The notes beneath the pieces are model-generated. The model was not told the origin of the DNA and ran no database searches. It saw only the letters and a program-made list of their open reading frames with translations. Positions 41,035 to 49,794 of a stretch of DNA of 64,000 bases are shown here, in pieces (position 1 is the first letter of the stretch; each line of letters begins with the position of its first letter). The DNA is from Jannaschia seosinensis (GTDB taxonomy: Bacteria; Pseudomonadota; Alphaproteobacteria; Rhodobacterales; Rhodobacteraceae). The position numbers and the translations under genes are program-made. The stretch is taken from assembly GCF_001408515.1 (NCBI RefSeq), contig NZ_CYPR01000043.1, positions 1-64,000 on the forward strand. Reading direction: 5' to 3'.

Positions 41035-41946
41035 TCAGGTCAGCCCCGCCGTCTCCTCCGCCCCGATCATCAGGTTGAGGTTCTGCACCGCCGTCCCCGA
41101 CGCGCCCTTGCCGAGGTTGTCGAGCGTGGCCGTCAAAGTGACGCGACCACGGCCGTCGCCATGAACGCCGATCTCCATCCGGTTGGTGCCGTTGAGCGCC
41201 TGCGGGTCGAGCCGATCGCCCCCGAGCACGACGGACACGAACGGATCCTTCGCATAGAAGTCGCGTAGCGCCGCCTCGATCCGGGCATGGCCCGGCACCC
41301 CGCCGGTGAGGAGGTCGGCATGGAGGTGCAACTGCACAACCATTCCCTGCGCGAAATTGCCGACCGCGGGCTGGAACAGGGGGCGCCGCGTGAGGCCGCC
41401 ATAGGTCATGATCTCGGGGACGTGCTTGTGATCCTGCCCGAGCGCATAGAGCGAGAAATCGGGCGCCTCCCCGGCCTCATGCGCGGCGATCGAAGCCTTG
41501 CCGCCGCCGCTATAGCCCGACACCCCGGTCAGGACGGTGGCGTGGTCGCTGCGCATGATTTCGGCGTCGATCAGCGGGCGCAGAAGCGCGATTGCCCCGG
41601 TCGCGTAGCAGCCGACATTCGCCACCCTGAGCGCATTGGAGATGCGGCCGCGCTGGCCCGGAAGCTCGGGCATGCCATAGGTCCAGTCCGGCGCGATCCG
41701 GTGTGCGGTCGAGGCGTCGATCAGCCGAGTTTCTCCAGCCATCGGAATGGCCATGCGCGCCGCATCGTCGGGCAGGCACAGGATCGCCACATCCGCTTCG
41801 GCAAAGGCGGCGCGGCGTGCGCCGTCATCCTTGCGATGCGCCTCGTCGAGCTGGACGAGTTCAATGTCGTCCCGGGCGGAGAGGCGATCGCGGATCCGCA
41901 AGCCCGTCGTGCCGGCTTCGCCGTCGATGAAGATCTTGTAAGTCAT
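41035..41946 (-). CDS. argC: N-acetyl-gamma-glutamyl-phosphate reductase, short (type 2) form
   Basis: NADPH-dependent reduction of N-acetylglutamyl phosphate in arginine synthesis. At 303 residues it is the short AGPR type found in alphaproteobacteria. The N-terminal IFIDGEAGTTGLRIRDRL is diagnostic. The catalytic Cys is C113 in ANVGCYATGAI, and the catalytic His region is GTNRMEIGVHG with PVGNFAQGM before it. The start MTYKIF is chosen over upstream Met codons with no conserved sequence. It is upstream of fliG with about 128 bp between them and could share its transcript. Confidence 0.95.
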   Translation of the reverse strand: MTYKIFIDGEAGTTGLRIRDRLSARDDIELVQLDEAHRKDDGARRAAFAEADVAILCLPDDAARMAIPMAGETRLIDASTAHRIAPDWTYGMPELPGQRGRISNALRVANVGCYATGAIALLRPLIDAEIMRSDHATVLTGVSGYSGGGKASIAAHEAGEAPDFSLYALGQDHKHVPEIMTYGGLTRRPLFQPAVGNFAQGMVVQLHLHADLLTGGVPGHARIEAALRDFYAKDPFVSVVLGGDRLDPQALNGTNRMEIGVHGDGRGRVTLTATLDNLGKGASGTAVQNLNLMIGAEETAGLT

Positions 41947-42145
41947 GGCCGTACCTCCCGCTGCGCGTCGTCTTGAGATACGCGCGGCGGCGGGGCCGTG
42001 CAACCGATGGGCGTGCCGTCGGCGCACAGACGCATCTGGCTGTACCGGTGGCTGCGTCAGAACCGGCTCGCGACGGGCGCGATGCTACACGAAATCAAGA
42101 AGAGCAGGGCGCATAAACGTCCTCGCCGGCACCGCAATCAAGCGA

Positions 42146-43091
42146 TCACTGCGTCGCGTCGGGCAAAGCGGCGCGGATGGTGCACACCACCCCTTCGGGA
42201 TCGAAGACAAGCGCTGCCGAACCGCCCAGATCCGGCGCGAGCGCCCGTTCGATGAGGCGGGAGCCGAACTCCTGCCGCTGTGGCGGAGAGACCTGCGGGC
42301 TGCCTTCCTCTCGCCATTCCACGACGAGGGTGGCGTCCTCCGATCCCGCCTCCGCCCACCAGCGGATGCCAACGCAGCCCTCGGGCGTGGAAAGCGCGCC
42401 GTATTTCGCGGCGTTAATCGCAAGCTGATGGAACGCCATCGAAAACGCAGTGGCCTTCTCGGTCGAGACGCTGATCTGTGGGCCATCGCGGCCAGCCGAC
42501 CGAGAAACGCGCGCCGGCCCTCCTCGAGCATGTCCGCCTCGCGGAAGGTCTGCGACGCGAGGCTGCTTGCAAGCGCGAAGGCGTTCTTGACACCCGGTGC
42601 GCCATTTCCCCCGCAAGCGTCTGGGCCCGGCTCTCCGCCCGCCTGCGCGCCTCCAGTTCGTCGCGAAGCTGGAACGGCCGCTGTCGCGCGTCAAAAGCCG
42701 CGCGGGCGATCGAAATGAAGACCGCCGTACGCATCGGGCGCTCCAGCATGACGACCCCCGGACGCGTGCTGAAGGAGGTCATGTGGTCCTTGGTGCCGCT
42801 CACGGTGCGCCGCCGCTCCGGATCAACCAGGAGGATGACCGGAAGGCTCGACCAGTACGGTTGCGCATCGAGTAGGTCCGTCAGGCGCCGGACCACCTCA
42901 CATGTCAGGAACTCCTCGCTCAGGACCAGCGCGCTCAGGTCCTCCAGCGGGATCTTGAGCAGGTCCGCGAGGTCCGTCGCGGGCAGACAGGGGAGGCCCG
43001 CATTGTCCAGCAATCCACACGCGATTTCCGCATCCCGGCCGATGGGGGCGAGTGTCAGGACGGCTCTGGTACCGCTTGTGTCTTCGGTCAA
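42146..43091 (-). pseudogene. HWE histidine kinase, disrupted by one frameshift and one frameshifting deletion
   Basis: Leftward gene starting 13 bp after the KaiC-like stop. The first frame (MTEDTSGTRAVLTLAP) covers a receiver-like domain and a helix leading to the H-box LAGEMAHRV. There, near 42588-42594, the frame is lost and the expected continuation KNAFALASSLASQTFREAD moves to another frame. That frame runs through LGRLAAMAH and breaks again near 42474-42486, where about 40 family residues are also missing. The ATP-binding half (FSMAFHQLAINAAKYGALS, then GSRLIERALAPDLGG) continues in a third frame to the TGA at 42146. Kinase activity is not expected unless these are sequence errors. Confidence 0.8.
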
Positions 43092-43104
43092 TTTCGCCCC
43101 AGCC

Positions 43105-44580
43105 TCACTCCGGCAGTCCCTTGTTCTGCGTCTGCAATTCCGGCTCGCCGGACAGAACGCCGGAGAAGTTCTCGACCGGCTCGCTCACCTCGATCCGGCC
43201 GGGGGCGAAGCGCAACGCCCGGATGGTCGCCTCGTGGGGACCGTCGCGCTTTTTCAGGACGGAAATCACCCTGTGCACGCTTCCCGCCGCTTTGAAATGC
43301 CAAAGCACGATCACCGTATCCGCCATGTCGCTGACATCCACCGGGCTCTGCACGTTTTCCCCCAGAAGGCCGTGCTGTCCCACGACGACCAGCGACAGCA
43401 CGCCCCTCTCGCTCAAGAACGCGAGCAGGTCGTGCATCTGCGTCACGAGGGCCTGCTCCTGCGGCATCGCGTGGGAATAGCCGGTGAGGGTGTCGATCAT
43501 GACCACCTTGGCCTTGTCCCGCTCGACCGCCTCGCGGACCAGCTGCGAAAACTCGCCGGGTGACAATCCGGAGGTGTTCACGGACCGGAAGGTCACACGC
43601 CCGTCATCGATCAACGGGCCAAGCTCCATCCCGAGGCTCTTGGGAGCGGTTGAAGAACGTCGCCGGGCGCTCGTCGAAGCTGAAGATCGCGGCGCGGTCG
43701 CCGCGTTGCGCCGCGGCATAGGCGTAGAGCGCGAGGTCTTGCCCGTCCCCGTCGGCCCGACCACCACGCAGGCCGTGCCGAAGGACATGCCGCCGCCAAG
43801 CAGCTTGTCGAGTCCCTCGATGCCGCTTCCGACGGCTTCGCCGGGCGGCGGCCTGCCGCCCGTGTCGGCCTCGAGCCGCGGGAAGACCTGGATCCCGCCG
43901 CTTTGGATGCGGAAATTGTGGTTGCCGCCGTGGAAATCCATGCTCCGCATCTTCGAGACGTGCAGCCGCCGCCGCACGTCGTCGTAATCGGGCACGTTGC
44001 GGTCCAGCGCCACAACGCCGTCGGCAAGGTCGCCCACGACTTCGTTCATGCACTTGGCGCTGTCGAGAATGAGGGAGGTCGTCGACATCCGCGACAGCAG
44101 GGCCCGCAGCAGCAGGACCTGCCGCTGGAAGCGCACCTGCGTATCCGCAAGGTGCCGTATCTGTGCGATGGAATCGAAGACCAGCCGGTCGGGTCTGAAA
44201 TGCTCGATCTCCTTCAGGAGCGCCGACATCATCTCCGTCAGTTCGACCTCGGCGGTGTGAAACAGCGTCTGCTCGCTGCTGTTCTCGGCCCCGTCCATCA
44301 TCCGCTCGTTGCGAATTTCGACACCATCGAGCGACCAGCCATGCGCCGCGGCGGTGCGCTTCAGGGCCGCCTCGGTCTGCGACAGCGTGATGAAAAGGAC
44401 CTTCTCGCCCTTCGCGAGACCGTCGAGCAGGAACTGTCGCCCCATCGTCGTCTTTCCGACGCCGGCATCGCCATAGACCACGTTCATTTCGCCGCGCGGA
44501 AACCCGCCGCCGAGAATTTCGTTGAGGCCCTTGATCCCGGTTCCGGCTCTCAACGGTTCATCGGGATTTCTGTCGAGCAT
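43105..44580 (-). CDS. KaiC-like RecA-superfamily ATPase with an internal frame-shifted block
   Basis: A 491-codon double-domain KaiC/RadA-like ATPase. Domain 1 has Walker A YGDAGVGKTT (37-46) and Walker B-like DRLVFDSIAQ. Domain 2 has Walker A GPTGTGKTS (275-283) and VVMIDTLTGYS. Between the domain 2 Walker A and SLGMELG, about 38 codons (SRSTPMPRRN onward) are nonsense-like. The same DNA in another frame gives LALYAYAAAQRGDRAAIFSFDE, the expected catalytic-Glu region. A one-base loss near 43736 and a one-base gain near 43643 compensate each other. Bacterial KaiC homologues without KaiA act in stress and light/dark signalling with HWE kinases, as the neighbours suggest. No kaiB was found. 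Confidence 0.8.
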   Translation of the reverse strand: MLDRNPDEPLRAGTGIKGLNEILGGGFPRGEMNVVYGDAGVGKTTMGRQFLLDGLAKGEKVLFITLSQTEAALKRTAAAHGWSLDGVEIRNERMMDGAENSSEQTLFHTAEVELTEMMSALLKEIEHFRPDRLVFDSIAQIRHLADTQVRFQRQVLLLRALLSRMSTTSLILDSAKCMNEVVGDLADGVVALDRNVPDYDDVRRRLHVSKMRSMDFHGGNHNFRIQSGGIQVFPRLEADTGGRPPPGEAVGSGIEGLDKLLGGGMSFGTACVVVGPTGTGKTSRSTPMPRRNAATAPRSSASTSARRRSSTAPKSLGMELGPLIDDGRVTFRSVNTSGLSPGEFSQLVREAVERDKAKVVMIDTLTGYSHAMPQEQALVTQMHDLLAFLSERGVLSLVVVGQHGLLGENVQSPVDVSDMADTVIVLWHFKAAGSVHRVISVLKKRDGPHEATIRALRFAPGRIEVSEPVENFSGVLSGEPELQTQNKGLPE

Positions 44581-44662
44581 GCGAGGTCCAGTTCACGATA
44601 GGGGGCACCGCCCGAATTCCGTCCGGTCACCAGAATCTTAACGAACTCGCGGAAGTAGCGTG

Positions 44663-44673
44663 CCCCCCCCCCC
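44663..44673. repeat. Homopolymeric run of 11 C
   Basis: An uninterrupted C11 run (G11 on the transcribed strand) lies about 80 bp upstream of the KaiC-like start and about 120 bp past the stop of the response regulator. Runs of this length are hypermutable by slippage and could alter promoter spacing for the leftward KaiC-like gene. They are also a common site of sequencing error. Confidence 0.9.
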
Positions 44674-44791
44674 GCGGGTACGCAACGACTCCAATATCCG
44701 GGAGGCGCCATCGCCCTTGAGATCCGAAGCCCCTTCGCTGAGCCGGAAAGCCGCGTGGGACGGCAGGGACGCGCCGCAACCCCCGGACGTG

Positions 44792-45172
44792 TCAGGGATA
44801 CGACGCATTCTTCAGCGCTTCGAGCGCGTCGTTGACGTCATGCGCGGTGTAGGGCTTGCGCATGATCGGATCGGTGAAGCCGAGCCTCCGCAACTCCGCC
44901 ACCTCATAGCCGGACGCCAAAACCAGCGGAATCCCCGTGACGCGCAGGGCATCGACCACGGGCCGGGCGGACTGCCCGCCCAGATTGGCATCCACGAGCG
45001 CCGCATCCGGCCTGAGCGACAGCTTCTCGATCAAGTCGAGGGCCTGCGTAACCGTCGCGACGGGCCCGATCACTGAGTGACCGAGCTCCTCGAGCATGTC
45101 CTCGATTTCCAGCGCGATCAGTGTTTCGTCTTCGATGACCAGAACGCAAAGCGGTTCAACAGCACGCATCAC
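44792..45172 (-). CDS. Single-domain response regulator (CheY-like receiver)
   Basis: A 126-residue stand-alone receiver. The acidic pocket is VIEDET (E14, D15), the phosphoacceptor is D61 in ALVDANLGG, the conserved Ser/Thr-type position lies in LVLASGYE, and the lysine is in MRKPY (K106). No output domain is present. It starts 16 bp inside the 3' end of the upstream kinase pseudogene, so it was made as its coupled partner. It is intact even though that kinase and the other HWE kinase in the locus are broken. Such small receivers next to HWE kinases act as phosphate sinks or relay to general stress components; that is inference. Confidence 0.9.
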   Translation of the reverse strand: MMRAVEPLCVLVIEDETLIALEIEDMLEELGHSVIGPVATVTQALDLIEKLSLRPDAALVDANLGGQSARPVVDALRVTGIPLVLASGYEVAELRRLGFTDPIMRKPYTAHDVNDALEALKNASYP

Positions 45173-48100
45173 TGACCATCTCGCCCTCGGGAAAGATCAT
45201 CTCGCACACCAGACCGTCGGGCCGGTCGTCGAGCCGAACCTCCCCATCGAGTTCGCGGGCTATTCCTCGTTCCAGCATACGTTTTCCAAATGCCTGATGA
45301 CTCGGCGGCTCAACCCGCGGGCCGCCGCTCTCGTTCCAGGTCAGGCGAAAGACCTTGCCGGCGTCGTCCCCGGGCGCCGCCTCGAACCGCCAGGAGACGT
45401 CCACGAGCCCGTCCGCATTCGACAGGGCGCCTTATTTCATGCCGTTCGTCGCAAGCTCGTTCAACGCCATCGCGAACGAGATCGTCGCGTTGGGCGACAG
45501 CCGGACCGGAGGCCCGCCGACGCGGAACTGGTCGCCGGCGCCGATGAAGCTGGCGAGGGCGGTCCGCGCAAGCTCCTCCAAGTCCGCGCCGCGCCAATGC
45601 CGCTGCGTCAGGAGGCCATGCGCGCGCGATGGCCTGCACCCGCTGCTGGAACGTCTCGATGAAGACGTTCATGTCGTCCGTCGTCCGCAGCGTCTGGCTG
45701 GCGATCGGCTGGACCACGGCGAGCATGTTTTTCACGCGGTGGTTCAGCTCCCCCATCATCAATTCGCGCTCTTCCTCGTGGCGCTTCCTGTCGGTGATGT
45801 CCTGGAACACGATGGCGACGCGGCTGTCGTCGATTTTGGTGGTGCCGATCTCGAATCAGCGCCGGACGGGTTCGACCCAAAGCTCGGCCTGTCCCGGCTC
45901 TCCGGTCTCCAGAACGCGCGCCGGCAGGTTTCACCATTCCGGCGCGAACCCTCGGCGATCTCGTGCAGGCAGCGGCCGCCGATATCGGACCCACCAGCCG
46001 CATCGCCGCCGGGTTGGCCTCGAGGTAGCCGCCTCGTCGCGGATCACCTCGGCCAACAGACAACCCTCATCCATCGTGTCGAACAGACGGCGATACCGCG
46101 CCTCGCTTTCGCGCAATTGATCGGCGGCCTGCCGCAATTCGGTGATGTCGACGAAACTCACGACGACGCCCTCGATCCGGTCCTCGACCGTCCGGTAGGG
46201 GCGAAGGCGCATCATCAGCCAGTGGCCGTCCTGGGTCTGGACCTCGGTCTCGACCGACGACAGGTCGCGCAGGACCTTGGCCGCATCCCGCTCGATCCCG
46301 TCACAGGCAAGTTTGTGGGTAAAGTCGGTGATCGGCCGGCCGACATCGCTGTCGGTCACGCTGAAAAGCTGCTCGACCACGGGCGTCAGCATGTTGATCC
46401 GCAACTCCCCGTCGAGGAGCAACATCCCGGGACCGGTCCCGGTCGCGTTAACGAGGTTGCGCAGGTCGCTATGGGCCGATGCGACGGCGTTGAGCTTGCT
46501 CTGAAGCTCGCCATTCACCGTCGAAAGCTCCTCTTTGATCGACTGAAGCTTCTCGTTGGCCATGCGCAGCTCCTGGATCGAGACCTCGTGCTCGCGCCGG
46601 CTCGCGCTGAGGCGGTCCTGCGTCGCCCGCAACTCCTCCTCGAGCCGAAGCACCTGGGCCGGCTCCGACAGGGCGGACGCATCCTCGCCACCGCCGTGAC
46701 GGCTCGACGGTCCCGCATCCAGAAACAGGACCAGCGCCTTGCGGCCCACGGTCTCGTCGCCGGGAACCGGCATCACATGCATCAGGACGCGGCGCTGCTC
46801 CGCCTCCAGCTTGACCGATGCGGGCAGGGTGATCGTCGCGTGGTTCCGGTCGATGGCGCTGTGCAGCGCGCGGCGAAGCTCCGCCCGAAGCTCGGGATGC
46901 ACGATGTCGGGCAGTTCCCGGCTCAGCGGCCCCTCGGACGGCCGGATGAACTGCCCGGCATTCGTCGAGAGGTTCAGGGTCCGATGCTCCTTGTCCACCA
47001 ACGCGCTCGGCGGGGCCAGCGTCTCGAGGGCCGTGGCATGCGTGATCGGCGGGGCCTTCTCCCGATCGCGGCACCGCTCCCCCCGCTCATCGGGCAGGTT
47101 GAGGCGATGCTCCCGCGGCAACTGCGTTAGAGTCTCCGGATCGCGCGAACTGCGGGGCTTGGCTGCGTAACCCCACGTTTCCCGGTCGCACGGCGCGAAC
47201 AGTTCCGGTCGCGTATCCACGCTTTCGGCGGAGCCGAGGAACAAAACCCGGCCCGGTTTGAGCGCGTAACGGAACAGCGCCAGCAATTGCCGCTGCAACT
47301 CGCGCTCCAGATAGATCATCAGGTTCCGGCAAGTGATGATATCCATCCGCATGAACGGCGGATCCTTCAGCGCGCTGTGATGGGCGAACGGCGCGATGTC
47401 GCGCACCTCCTTGCGGATGCAATAATGCGAGCCCTCGTCGATGAAGAAGCGGCGCAGGCGGTTCTCGGACACGTCCGCCTCGATCGCCTTCGGATAACGT
47501 CCCTCGCGCGCGGTCGCGAGGGACGTTGTCCAGATCGGTCGCGAAGATCTGGATCATCGGCCGCACCTGCTGACGCTCCGCCTCCTCCAGCATCAGCATG
47601 GCAAGGCGATAGTCTTCCTCGCCCGTGGCGCAGCCCACCGACCAGTTACGGAGCTTCTCCTCGCCATCAAGGTCCCGCAGGATCGGCGTCGACGCCTCCT
47701 CCACCAGCGACTCGATCGCGCCGGGATCGCGAAAGAACGCCGTGACCGAGATCAGCAGATCGGAGAAGAGATCCTGCGCCTCCTCGGGGTTGGTACGCAG
47801 ATATTCGGCATAGGCCGTCAGGTCGTTCGTCCGCGTCACCTGCATGCGCCGCGAGACCCGGCGCATCACCGTCGCGCGCTTGTAGTTGGAGAAGTCGTGC
47901 CCGGTGCGGACGTGAAGGAACGACATGATCTTTCGGAGGTCGCTTCCGCATCGTCATCGCGCATGCGGCGCAGGCCTTCCCTGCTCTGGGCGACCTCCGC
48001 GATGCGGATGGCGATGCCTTCGATGGGCTCGACGAAATCGGCGACGCCGGTGGCCATGGCGCTGCGCGGCATCATCCCGTATTCCGCCTCGCCCGGATCC

Positions 48101-48579
48101 TGCACGAAGATGACGCCGTCGGCCTCCTTGACCTTCGTGATGCCGACCGCGCCATCCGAGGCCGCCCCGCTGAGCACGACGGCGAACCCGTCGCCCCGAC
48201 CGGCCGCAATCGAGCGAAAGAACATGTCGATGGGCGTCCGCCGCCCGCGCTGCTCGGTGAACGGGCAGGAACGGACCCCGTTGCCCTCGATCATCAGTTT
48301 CGTATCGGGCGCAATGACATAGACGCAGTTCGGCTCCAGCTTGGGCGTATTGCTGACCTGATACACCGGCATCCGCGTCCTGCCGCCGAGGACCTCGCTC
48401 AGCTGGCTTTCGTGATCCGGCGACAGATGCATGGTCACGACATAGGCGAGACCCAGATCGTCGTCGATCGCCTCGAAGAACTGCTGGAGCGCCTTCACAC
48501 CGCCGGCCGACGCTCCCATCGCTCAGATCGGCGTCAGCTTATCCTCCCGGCGCCGCGACTCTTTGTCCACTTCGACCAT
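45156..48579 (-). pseudogene. CheB-CheR-PAS-HWE hybrid sensor kinase, heavily decayed
   Basis: Leftward remains of a roughly 1,100-residue fusion. The order is: CheB methylesterase (AMGASAGGVKALQQF, VVLSGAASDGAVG), CheR methyltransferase (FLHVRTGHDFSNYKRATVMR, NWSVGCATGEE, DIITCRNLMIYLE), coiled-coil linker, PAS domains, and HWE kinase (GELNHRVKNMLAVVQ, ALNELATNGMK, then GALSNAD). In-frame stops lie at 48523-48525 (before the CheB core), 45931-45933, 45856-45858 (each replacing an expected Trp) and 45432-45434 (TAA for the Tyr of the N-box). Frame breaks lie near 47940, 47522, 46032, 45990, 45940 and 45620. The coding sequence is otherwise conserved. Translation could restart at 48519, giving a CheB domain alone. 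The intact ancestor would have controlled the receiver downstream. Confidence 0.85.
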
Positions 48580-48981
48580 CGTGTTCCCGCCTCTCGTTGA
48601 GAGCCACTTACGCGAGACGCGAGTGTGATTACAGGCAGATACGACGATGCCCGCTGGATTTCGGGCGGGCCAGCCGAAAGTTGCGGGACCTGCGGCAAGC
48701 GGGAAATGGCGCTCCTGCACGCTCGACCACCCGCGCCGCGGTCCGGCCTGTCACCCTGCGGCCACACCCCCTGCTTCGCACCACCGGCGGCGCGCATTCC
48801 AGCGGGCGGAGGACGAGAATTGTCGAAACGTTCGCGGCAGCGAGGAATCCGGAAACGGTTGCGGTGGCACGGAATGAAGACGCCGCAACGGAGGTCGAAG
48901 CACCCGGAGTCCGGCGTTTTTCCCGCCACACGAACAAGAGCGGCGTTGCACGCCCCCTCCGGCGCGGCGTAACTCCGTCGG
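48580..48981. other. 400-bp divergent intergenic region
   Basis: This lies between the decayed CheB-CheR kinase (leftward) and the YmdB-like gene (rightward). Open frames on both strands are Arg/Pro-rich and show no family motifs. It should contain the former promoter of the kinase locus and that of the YmdB-like gene. No specific site is recognised. Confidence 0.4.
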
Positions 48982-49794
48982 ATGCGGATTCTGTTTCTAG
49001 GCGATGTAATGGGGCGGAGCGGCCGGACGGCCGTCACGGAACGGCTGCCGGGCCTGCGGGCTGAATGGCGGCTCGATGCCGTGATCGTCAACGGCGAGAA
49101 CGCCTCCTCGGGGCGCGGCCTCAACGCGGCACAGGCGCGGGGGCTTCTCGACGCCGGGGCCGACGTCATCACGCTGGGCGATCACGCCTTAGACCAGAAG
49201 GACATGATGCAGGCGGTGGAAAAGGAGCCCCGGATCCTGCGCCCCATCAACTATGCCAAGCAGGCGCCGGGCCGCGGCTGGCGGGTGTTCGAGATCGGCG
49301 GCAAGCGCCTCCTCGTGGCGCAGGTGCTGGGCCAGGTGTTCATGTCGCGCACCTATGACGACCCGTTTTCGGCGATCGAGCCGGTCCTCACGGCGCATCC
49401 GCTGGGCCGGGCGGTGGATGCGATCCTCGTCGACATGCATTGCGAGGCGACGTCGGAGAAGATGGCGATGGGGCATTTCTGCGACCGTCGGGCCTCCGTG
49501 GTGGTCGGCACGCATACGCACGTGCCGACGGCGGATGCGATGATCCTGCCTGGCGGCACGGCGTATCAGACGGATGCCGGCATGTGCGGCGACTACGATT
49601 CCGTGATCGGCATGGAGAAGGCGGAGCCGCTGCGCCGCTTCGTGACCGGCATGACGCGGGAGCGGTTCACCCCGGCGGGCGGTGCGGCGACCCTGTGCGG
49701 GCTGTTCGTCGAGACCGACGACGCGACGGGCCTCGCCCAAACCGTCGCGCAGGTCCGCATCGGCGGGCGGCTGAGCCAGTCGGCACCGGCATGA
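48982..49794 (+). CDS. YmdB-like metallophosphoesterase
   Basis: A 270-residue calcineurin-like phosphodiesterase of the YmdB family; the B. subtilis homologue cleaves 2',3'-cAMP. The dinuclear metal motifs are FLGDVMGRSGR at the N-terminus, VNGENASSGRG, LGDHALDQKD, VDMHCEATSEK and VVGTHTHVPTAD. The third motif has Asp where many homologues have Asn (G-N-H). A DAGMCGDYDSVIGM block is conserved in the family. The start is near a purine-poor leader, so translation initiation is uncertain. It precedes the transporter by about 46 bp in the same direction. Confidence 0.92.
   Translation: MRILFLGDVMGRSGRTAVTERLPGLRAEWRLDAVIVNGENASSGRGLNAAQARGLLDAGADVITLGDHALDQKDMMQAVEKEPRILRPINYAKQAPGRGWRVFEIGGKRLLVAQVLGQVFMSRTYDDPFSAIEPVLTAHPLGRAVDAILVDMHCEATSEKMAMGHFCDRRASVVVGTHTHVPTADAMILPGGTAYQTDAGMCGDYDSVIGMEKAEPLRRFVTGMTRERFTPAGGAATLCGLFVETDDATGLAQTVAQVRIGGRLSQSAPA

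Follow-up and report, generated by a model that had tools for sequence, protein, structure and literature searches.

Probable decay of an accessory signalling cluster between argC- and ymdB-like genes in Jannaschia seosinensis

The region between the argC- and ymdB-like genes of Jannaschia seosinensis very probably holds a decaying accessory signalling cluster, that is, an ordinary cluster of pseudogenes. The window analysed, a stretch of 64,000 nucleotides, begins with the first base of a contig that is 79,014 bases long (bases 1-64000); the genome is a draft of 3.83 Mb in 253 contigs and is 98.66% complete. Four genes lie consecutively on the minus strand between 42.1 and 48.6 kb. The first encodes a fusion of CheB, CheR and PAS domains with an HWE histidine kinase, and the second a response regulator made up of a receiver alone; a KaiC-like tandem ATPase gene comes next, and the gene for another HWE kinase is the last. 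Besides the fusion kinase gene, those for KaiC and the second HWE kinase are disrupted. The left boundary of this patch is an intact gene (41035..42027, minus strand) that aligns in relatives and is presumably argC, a name based on the type of protein sequence as opposed to being assigned via a family scan; the right boundary is an intact YmdB-like gene (48982..49794, plus strand; PF13277). ArgC (71-76%) and YmdB (81-86%) aligned over nearly their full length in all ten relatives' loci that were searched, bearing out the statement in a preliminary description of this DNA that the genes flanking the patch are intact.

Interruptions in the fusion kinase gene

Pfam matches on successive fragments of the fusion gene (45156..48579, minus strand) occur in the order CheB_methylest, CheR_N, CheR, PAS_10 and HWE_HK, as expected for a protein of the form CheB-CheR-(coil)-PAS-PAS-HWE, but a single continuous reading frame is absent; the window copy is a broken relative of the CheB-CheR-PAS-HWE kinase fusions and not a working member. 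An intact 1164-amino-acid protein encoded in genome G260 (locus L057) served as reference for a frameshift-aware alignment, in which 732 of 1128 aligned codons between 48579 and 45166 (minus strand) were identical (65%). All four stops and six frame breaks that had been ascribed to the gene beforehand were recovered in this alignment, at no more than 13 nt from the positions first given. The alignment was repeated against four other intact homologues, of which only those from G108 and Sphingopyxis extend past 46050, and only that from G108 covers the end of the gene.

Proceeding along the minus strand, the first interruption is an in-frame TGA (48523..48525), which was found again with all four further references. 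It is followed by a frame break at 47943 (47940-47946 in the four further references), where the alignment shows one base fewer than the reference, and by another within CheR at 47524 (also in 4/4), where it shows two fewer. At the site of this second break, positions 47496-47527 form a perfect inverted repeat (arms of 13 bases, loop of 6 bases), which may have favoured the deletion there. A further 63 nt have been lost in frame from the coiled coil, at approximately 46490..46560, removing 21 residues that are kept in 8/8 intact homologues; this loss, together with the breaks in the KaiC and second HWE kinase genes considered below, was absent from the preliminary description. Three frame breaks then fall within the second PAS domain (45953..46032), at 46032, where 19 nt are lost as two adjacent gaps of 1 and 18, at 45991 and at 45953. 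The placement of breaks between 45.93 and 46.05 kb varies with the reference: both references that extend past 46050 show a break at 46038-46047, one of two covering references shows that at 45991 (at 45994), and G108, which at 50% identity is the most distant of the four, indicates that one base was gained at 45943, in place of the loss at 45953 seen with G260. Downstream of these are in-frame TGA codons at 45931..45933 (seen with one of two covering further references, the other having a break at 45932 instead) and 45856..45858 (seen with both), a frame break at 45621 within the HWE domain, located in a CG dinucleotide run and splitting the HWE_HK match, and an in-frame TAA in the kinase ATP-binding region at 45432..45434, which was also detected in the coding-frame scan. 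Alignment with G108 supports the last two, placing the former at 45627 and the latter at 45434. G108 also adds breaks at 48584, 47115 and 47072, which are shown by none of the other references. Every one of the six frame breaks was placed as a net loss relative to G260. Since the frame is cut in the CheR, PAS, dimerisation and ATP-binding regions, synthesis of a full-length kinase is impossible.

Recognisable domains are kept in the fragments between the breaks, which could be taken to mean that the whole protein is still made by reading through the stops or by programmed frameshifting. However, six breaks at unrelated sequences would need to be decoded too, and conserved positions have been eroded, such that recoding appears extremely improbable. 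Reassignment of a stop codon was considered and rejected, since both TGA and TAA are used and face different residues (Cys, Tyr, Trp and Tyr in G260), and no single reassignment therefore fits. The residues facing three of the stops had earlier been given as Trp, Trp and Tyr; both kinds do occur, but with one Trp as opposed to two, and their identity changes with the reference, being Tyr or Phe at 45933 and Trp or Tyr at 45858.

Other genes of the cluster and the density of breaks

The receiver-only response regulator is encoded by a 126-amino-acid open frame (44792..45172, minus strand) that overlaps the 3' end of the fusion gene, and is the only open gene among the cluster's four. Its match to PF00072, at 26.1 bits, is under the cut-off of 30.2, and 60 of 111 residues are identical to the receiver adjoining the intact G260 kinase. 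The KaiC-like gene (43105..44580, minus strand) can be read from end to end as a 491-amino-acid frame, but has frame breaks at 43731 and 43639, as a result of which approximately 30 residues directly following the second P-loop are read out of frame. Of its two KaiC stretches, part of the second is consequently garbled, and two intact KaiC ATPase domains were not found; 288 of 490 residues (59%) are nevertheless identical to the intact KaiC of the same-genus genome G017. The broken second HWE kinase gene (42146..43100, minus strand) retains an HWE_HK match at 42478-42591 and, relative to its intact G017 counterpart, has a frame break at 42593 and has lost approximately 121 nt near 42489.

Eight of the ten frame-breaking changes were placed as losses and two as gains, or nine losses among eleven length changes if the 63-nt deletion is included, with smaller in-frame differences (one to three codons, mostly gains) excluded from the count and the polarity taken from one homologue for most events and from eight for the 63-nt loss. 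The losses include those of 19, 63 and approximately 121 nt, sizes that speak against a local assembly or sequencing error having made an intact cluster look broken. The draft state of the genome, in 253 contigs, and the predominance of single-base breaks could both be cited in favour of such an error. Conversely, the patch is interior to its contig, and no homopolymer of more than three bases was found within 12 nt of any of the ten break sites; because only about 1.8 would be expected by chance, this denotes a lack of enrichment and not avoidance. Moreover, every break found sits in the signalling cluster, with argC and ymdB being spared.

The local nature of the damage is apparent also from a six-frame coding scan of 44 pieces of the genome (552,714 bases, ∼14%), in which the patch was defined as 42000-48981. 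Three scan settings each gave 7 events in the patch, whose coding DNA amounts to 5.9 kb. Elsewhere, the first of these settings gave 30 events in 456.6 kb (p = 4e-7), the second 32 in 459.7 kb and the third 88 in 462.0 kb, these outside counts including gene junctions missed by the filter. At the fourth and strictest setting, under which five short contigs were without coding calls, there were 3 events in the patch and 12 elsewhere. The contrast in break density accordingly ranges from 18-fold down to 6-fold, the latter at the loosest setting. With far fewer breaks in the flanking genes and in the 457 kb of sampled coding DNA, error seems improbable. The preliminary description had left the choice between a decaying sensor and poor sequence undecided; decay is now well supported and poor sequence unlikely.

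Divergence and protein constraint

Across 786 columns and seven sequences, the fusion gene in the window departs 40 times from a state on which the six intact homologues agree, compared with 11, 15, 18, 9, 14 and 14 unique states for the homologues themselves; one of the 40 is the stop at 48525, and the more distant G039 and G050 were omitted from this count. When G039 and G050 were added (760 columns), the window had 13 unique states versus 2-5 in the six, with 17 in G039 and 69 in G050. Non-conservative changes account for 14 of the 40 unique states in the window (stop included) and for 13 of 81 in the homologues (p = 0.02). The excess over the range of 9-18 indicates relaxed protein constraint on the fusion gene, the window copy of which is also 4-5 percentage points less similar than its nearest relative, G260, to each of seven other homologues. 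For KaiC, the window has 42 unique states versus 13-23 when four sequences are compared, and 15 versus 5-14 with six sequences, the latter contrast being weak in that the intact G131 copy has 14. Substitution errors would raise the number of unique changes too, so the test reacts equally to error and decay and cannot by itself separate the two.

The extent of divergence can be approximated in two ways. From the four stops, at kappa 2, some 160 substitutions (range 44-410) are estimated for the aligned codons, which amounts to 0.047 per site; the surplus of unique changes gives 0.039 per site, in agreement with the first figure. Unconstrained divergence therefore amounts to about 4% per site. 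A dN/dS analysis, suggested at the outset as a check on decay, did not go the same way: a branch codon model (821 columns, seven sequences) revealed no elevation on the window branch, with an omega of 0.075 versus 0.068 (p = 0.65). This test has little power for recent loss because the window branch, which is near synonymous saturation, extends to approximately 5 neutral-scaled units per codon. The unraised omega nonetheless represents a positive test that failed, and weighs against decay. The unique changes likewise revealed no clear A/T bias, with 18 G/C-to-A/T versus 9 reverse changes in the window and a higher ratio, 32 versus 9, for the six intact homologues summed.

The distribution of unique changes has a bearing also on whether individual pieces, such as the CheB domain on its own or the receiver, continue to function as genes in their own right. 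The CheB piece is a 217-amino-acid open frame that spans CheB model positions 3 to 173 of 174, and the receiver frame is open. However, 12 of the 40 unique changes fall in the CheB stretch (reference positions 20-199), and at approximately 2.4 breaks per kb, the density over the other three genes, chance alone is predicted to leave the receiver free of breaks approximately 40% of the time, so that its survival carries little information. Continued function of individual fragments is thus very improbable.

Genomic setting and comparison with known systems

The region between argC and ymdB varies among genomes of the genus, in which the signalling cluster is accessory. The spacing of the two genes was read from match coordinates in 19 other same-genus genomes. 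They are 106-338 bp apart in four (G004, G011, G016 and G017), 4.2-8.2 kb apart in the same orientation in eight (G001, G003, G007, G010, G012, G014, G018 and G019), 1.7 kb apart with one gene inverted in G009, and more than 100 kb apart in G002 and G008; in the remaining four (G005, G006, G013 and G015) they are on separate contigs, where linkage is not assessable. Ten of the 12 linked intervals (loci L060-L069; G003 and G014 were left out) were compared, and the fusion, KaiC and receiver proteins had zero matches in them at E <= 1e-5, whereas YmdB and ArgC matched in 10/10. Three of the ten were sampled, and hold ABC-type transport genes (L065 and L063) or a BCCT transporter gene (L064). No exact repeats of at least 11 bases common to 41901-42200 and 48451-49000 were found, and no insertion mechanism is therefore named.

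The fusion fragment matched none of the 19 other same-genus genomes at E <= 1e-60; weaker matches (E <= 1e-3) were present in 11, the best being 31-32% identical. Matches at E <= 1e-80 were found in 3 of 393 other genomes of the family (three candidates scored per genome), and KaiC matched 4 of 197 at E <= 1e-60. Plasmid records matching the fusion fragment (270) or KaiC (289) were all below 60% identity. A close relative with an intact copy of the cluster between argC and ymdB was not found, and the loss is for that reason not directly datable. Elsewhere in the J. seosinensis genome, contig C157 (L075:16517-19471) has an open 984-amino-acid frame with CheB, PAS and HWE matches and no CheR match. 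The encoded kinase is a distant paralogue of the broken fusion gene, and its presence could have lowered the cost of losing the fusion kinase.

Judged by homology, the ancestral cluster would have encoded two HWE kinases and a KaiC-like ATPase; one of the kinases, a soluble histidine kinase that sensed through PAS and also had CheB and CheR domains, would have been accompanied by its partner receiver. From the domain content, and from the general properties of these families, the fusion kinase presumably sensed a signal via PAS, autophosphorylated on the HWE histidine and passed the phosphate to the receiver. Selection on the cluster, which was probably no longer useful, would then have lapsed, with random substitutions (∼4% per site) and mostly small deletions accumulating neutrally. 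A more elaborate scheme, in which KaiC-HWE and CheB-CheR-HWE modules are repeatedly gained and lost at accessory sites in the genus, and in which the receiver outlives its kinase, possibly being kept for cross-talk with another HWE kinase of the cell, is improbable. Simple decay in place remains the favoured reading, and points to no new system. As such, the patch, with its numerous separate breaks between undamaged neighbouring genes, offers an example of the in situ loss of an accessory sensory cluster that should be usable for dating gene loss, and it serves as a warning that the fragments are not to be annotated as working chemotaxis or circadian genes.

Literature searches found no paper joining a CheB-CheR fusion with PAS and histidine kinase, none joining pseudogene, histidine kinase, frameshift and KaiC, and none joining KaiC, KaiB and Rhodobacteraceae. 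Intact homologues with the domain order proposed for the window gene do exist, in both of the full-length kinases scanned (G260, 65% identity; G108, 50%). In both genomes a receiver gene lies directly downstream, as in the window, with that of G108 being a Pfam receiver; no KaiC match at E <= 1e-4 was present in 15 kb around either intact gene. Compared with these fusions, the window copy is interrupted and lacks 21 coil residues. CheB-CheR-PAS proteins of Sphingopyxis sp. MSC1_008, Actirhodobacter atriluteus and Aurantiacibacter sp. are 59-60% identical over the CheB-CheR-PAS part but, unlike the window gene, have no HWE domain (3/3 scanned).

The KaiC-HWE part of the cluster has its counterpart in G017, where a pair at L071 has the same gene order (KaiC, 59%; HWE kinase, 53%) and is intact, whereas the window pair is disrupted. 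A second copy in the same genome, on contig 16 (L070:3429-4880), is a truncated remnant of KaiC and HWE kinase that is itself interrupted by a stop and frame breaks. With regard to the type of damage, a survey of Salmonella pseudogenes reports that small deletions and premature stops predominate and that insertions are few, at 17% (PMC2916853), and the window cluster, with mostly small deletions and premature stops, is similar. Conversely, 346 of 378 of those Salmonella pseudogenes have one inactivating mutation (PMC2916853), compared with ten in the window fusion gene, which is therefore probably an older or a tolerated relic.
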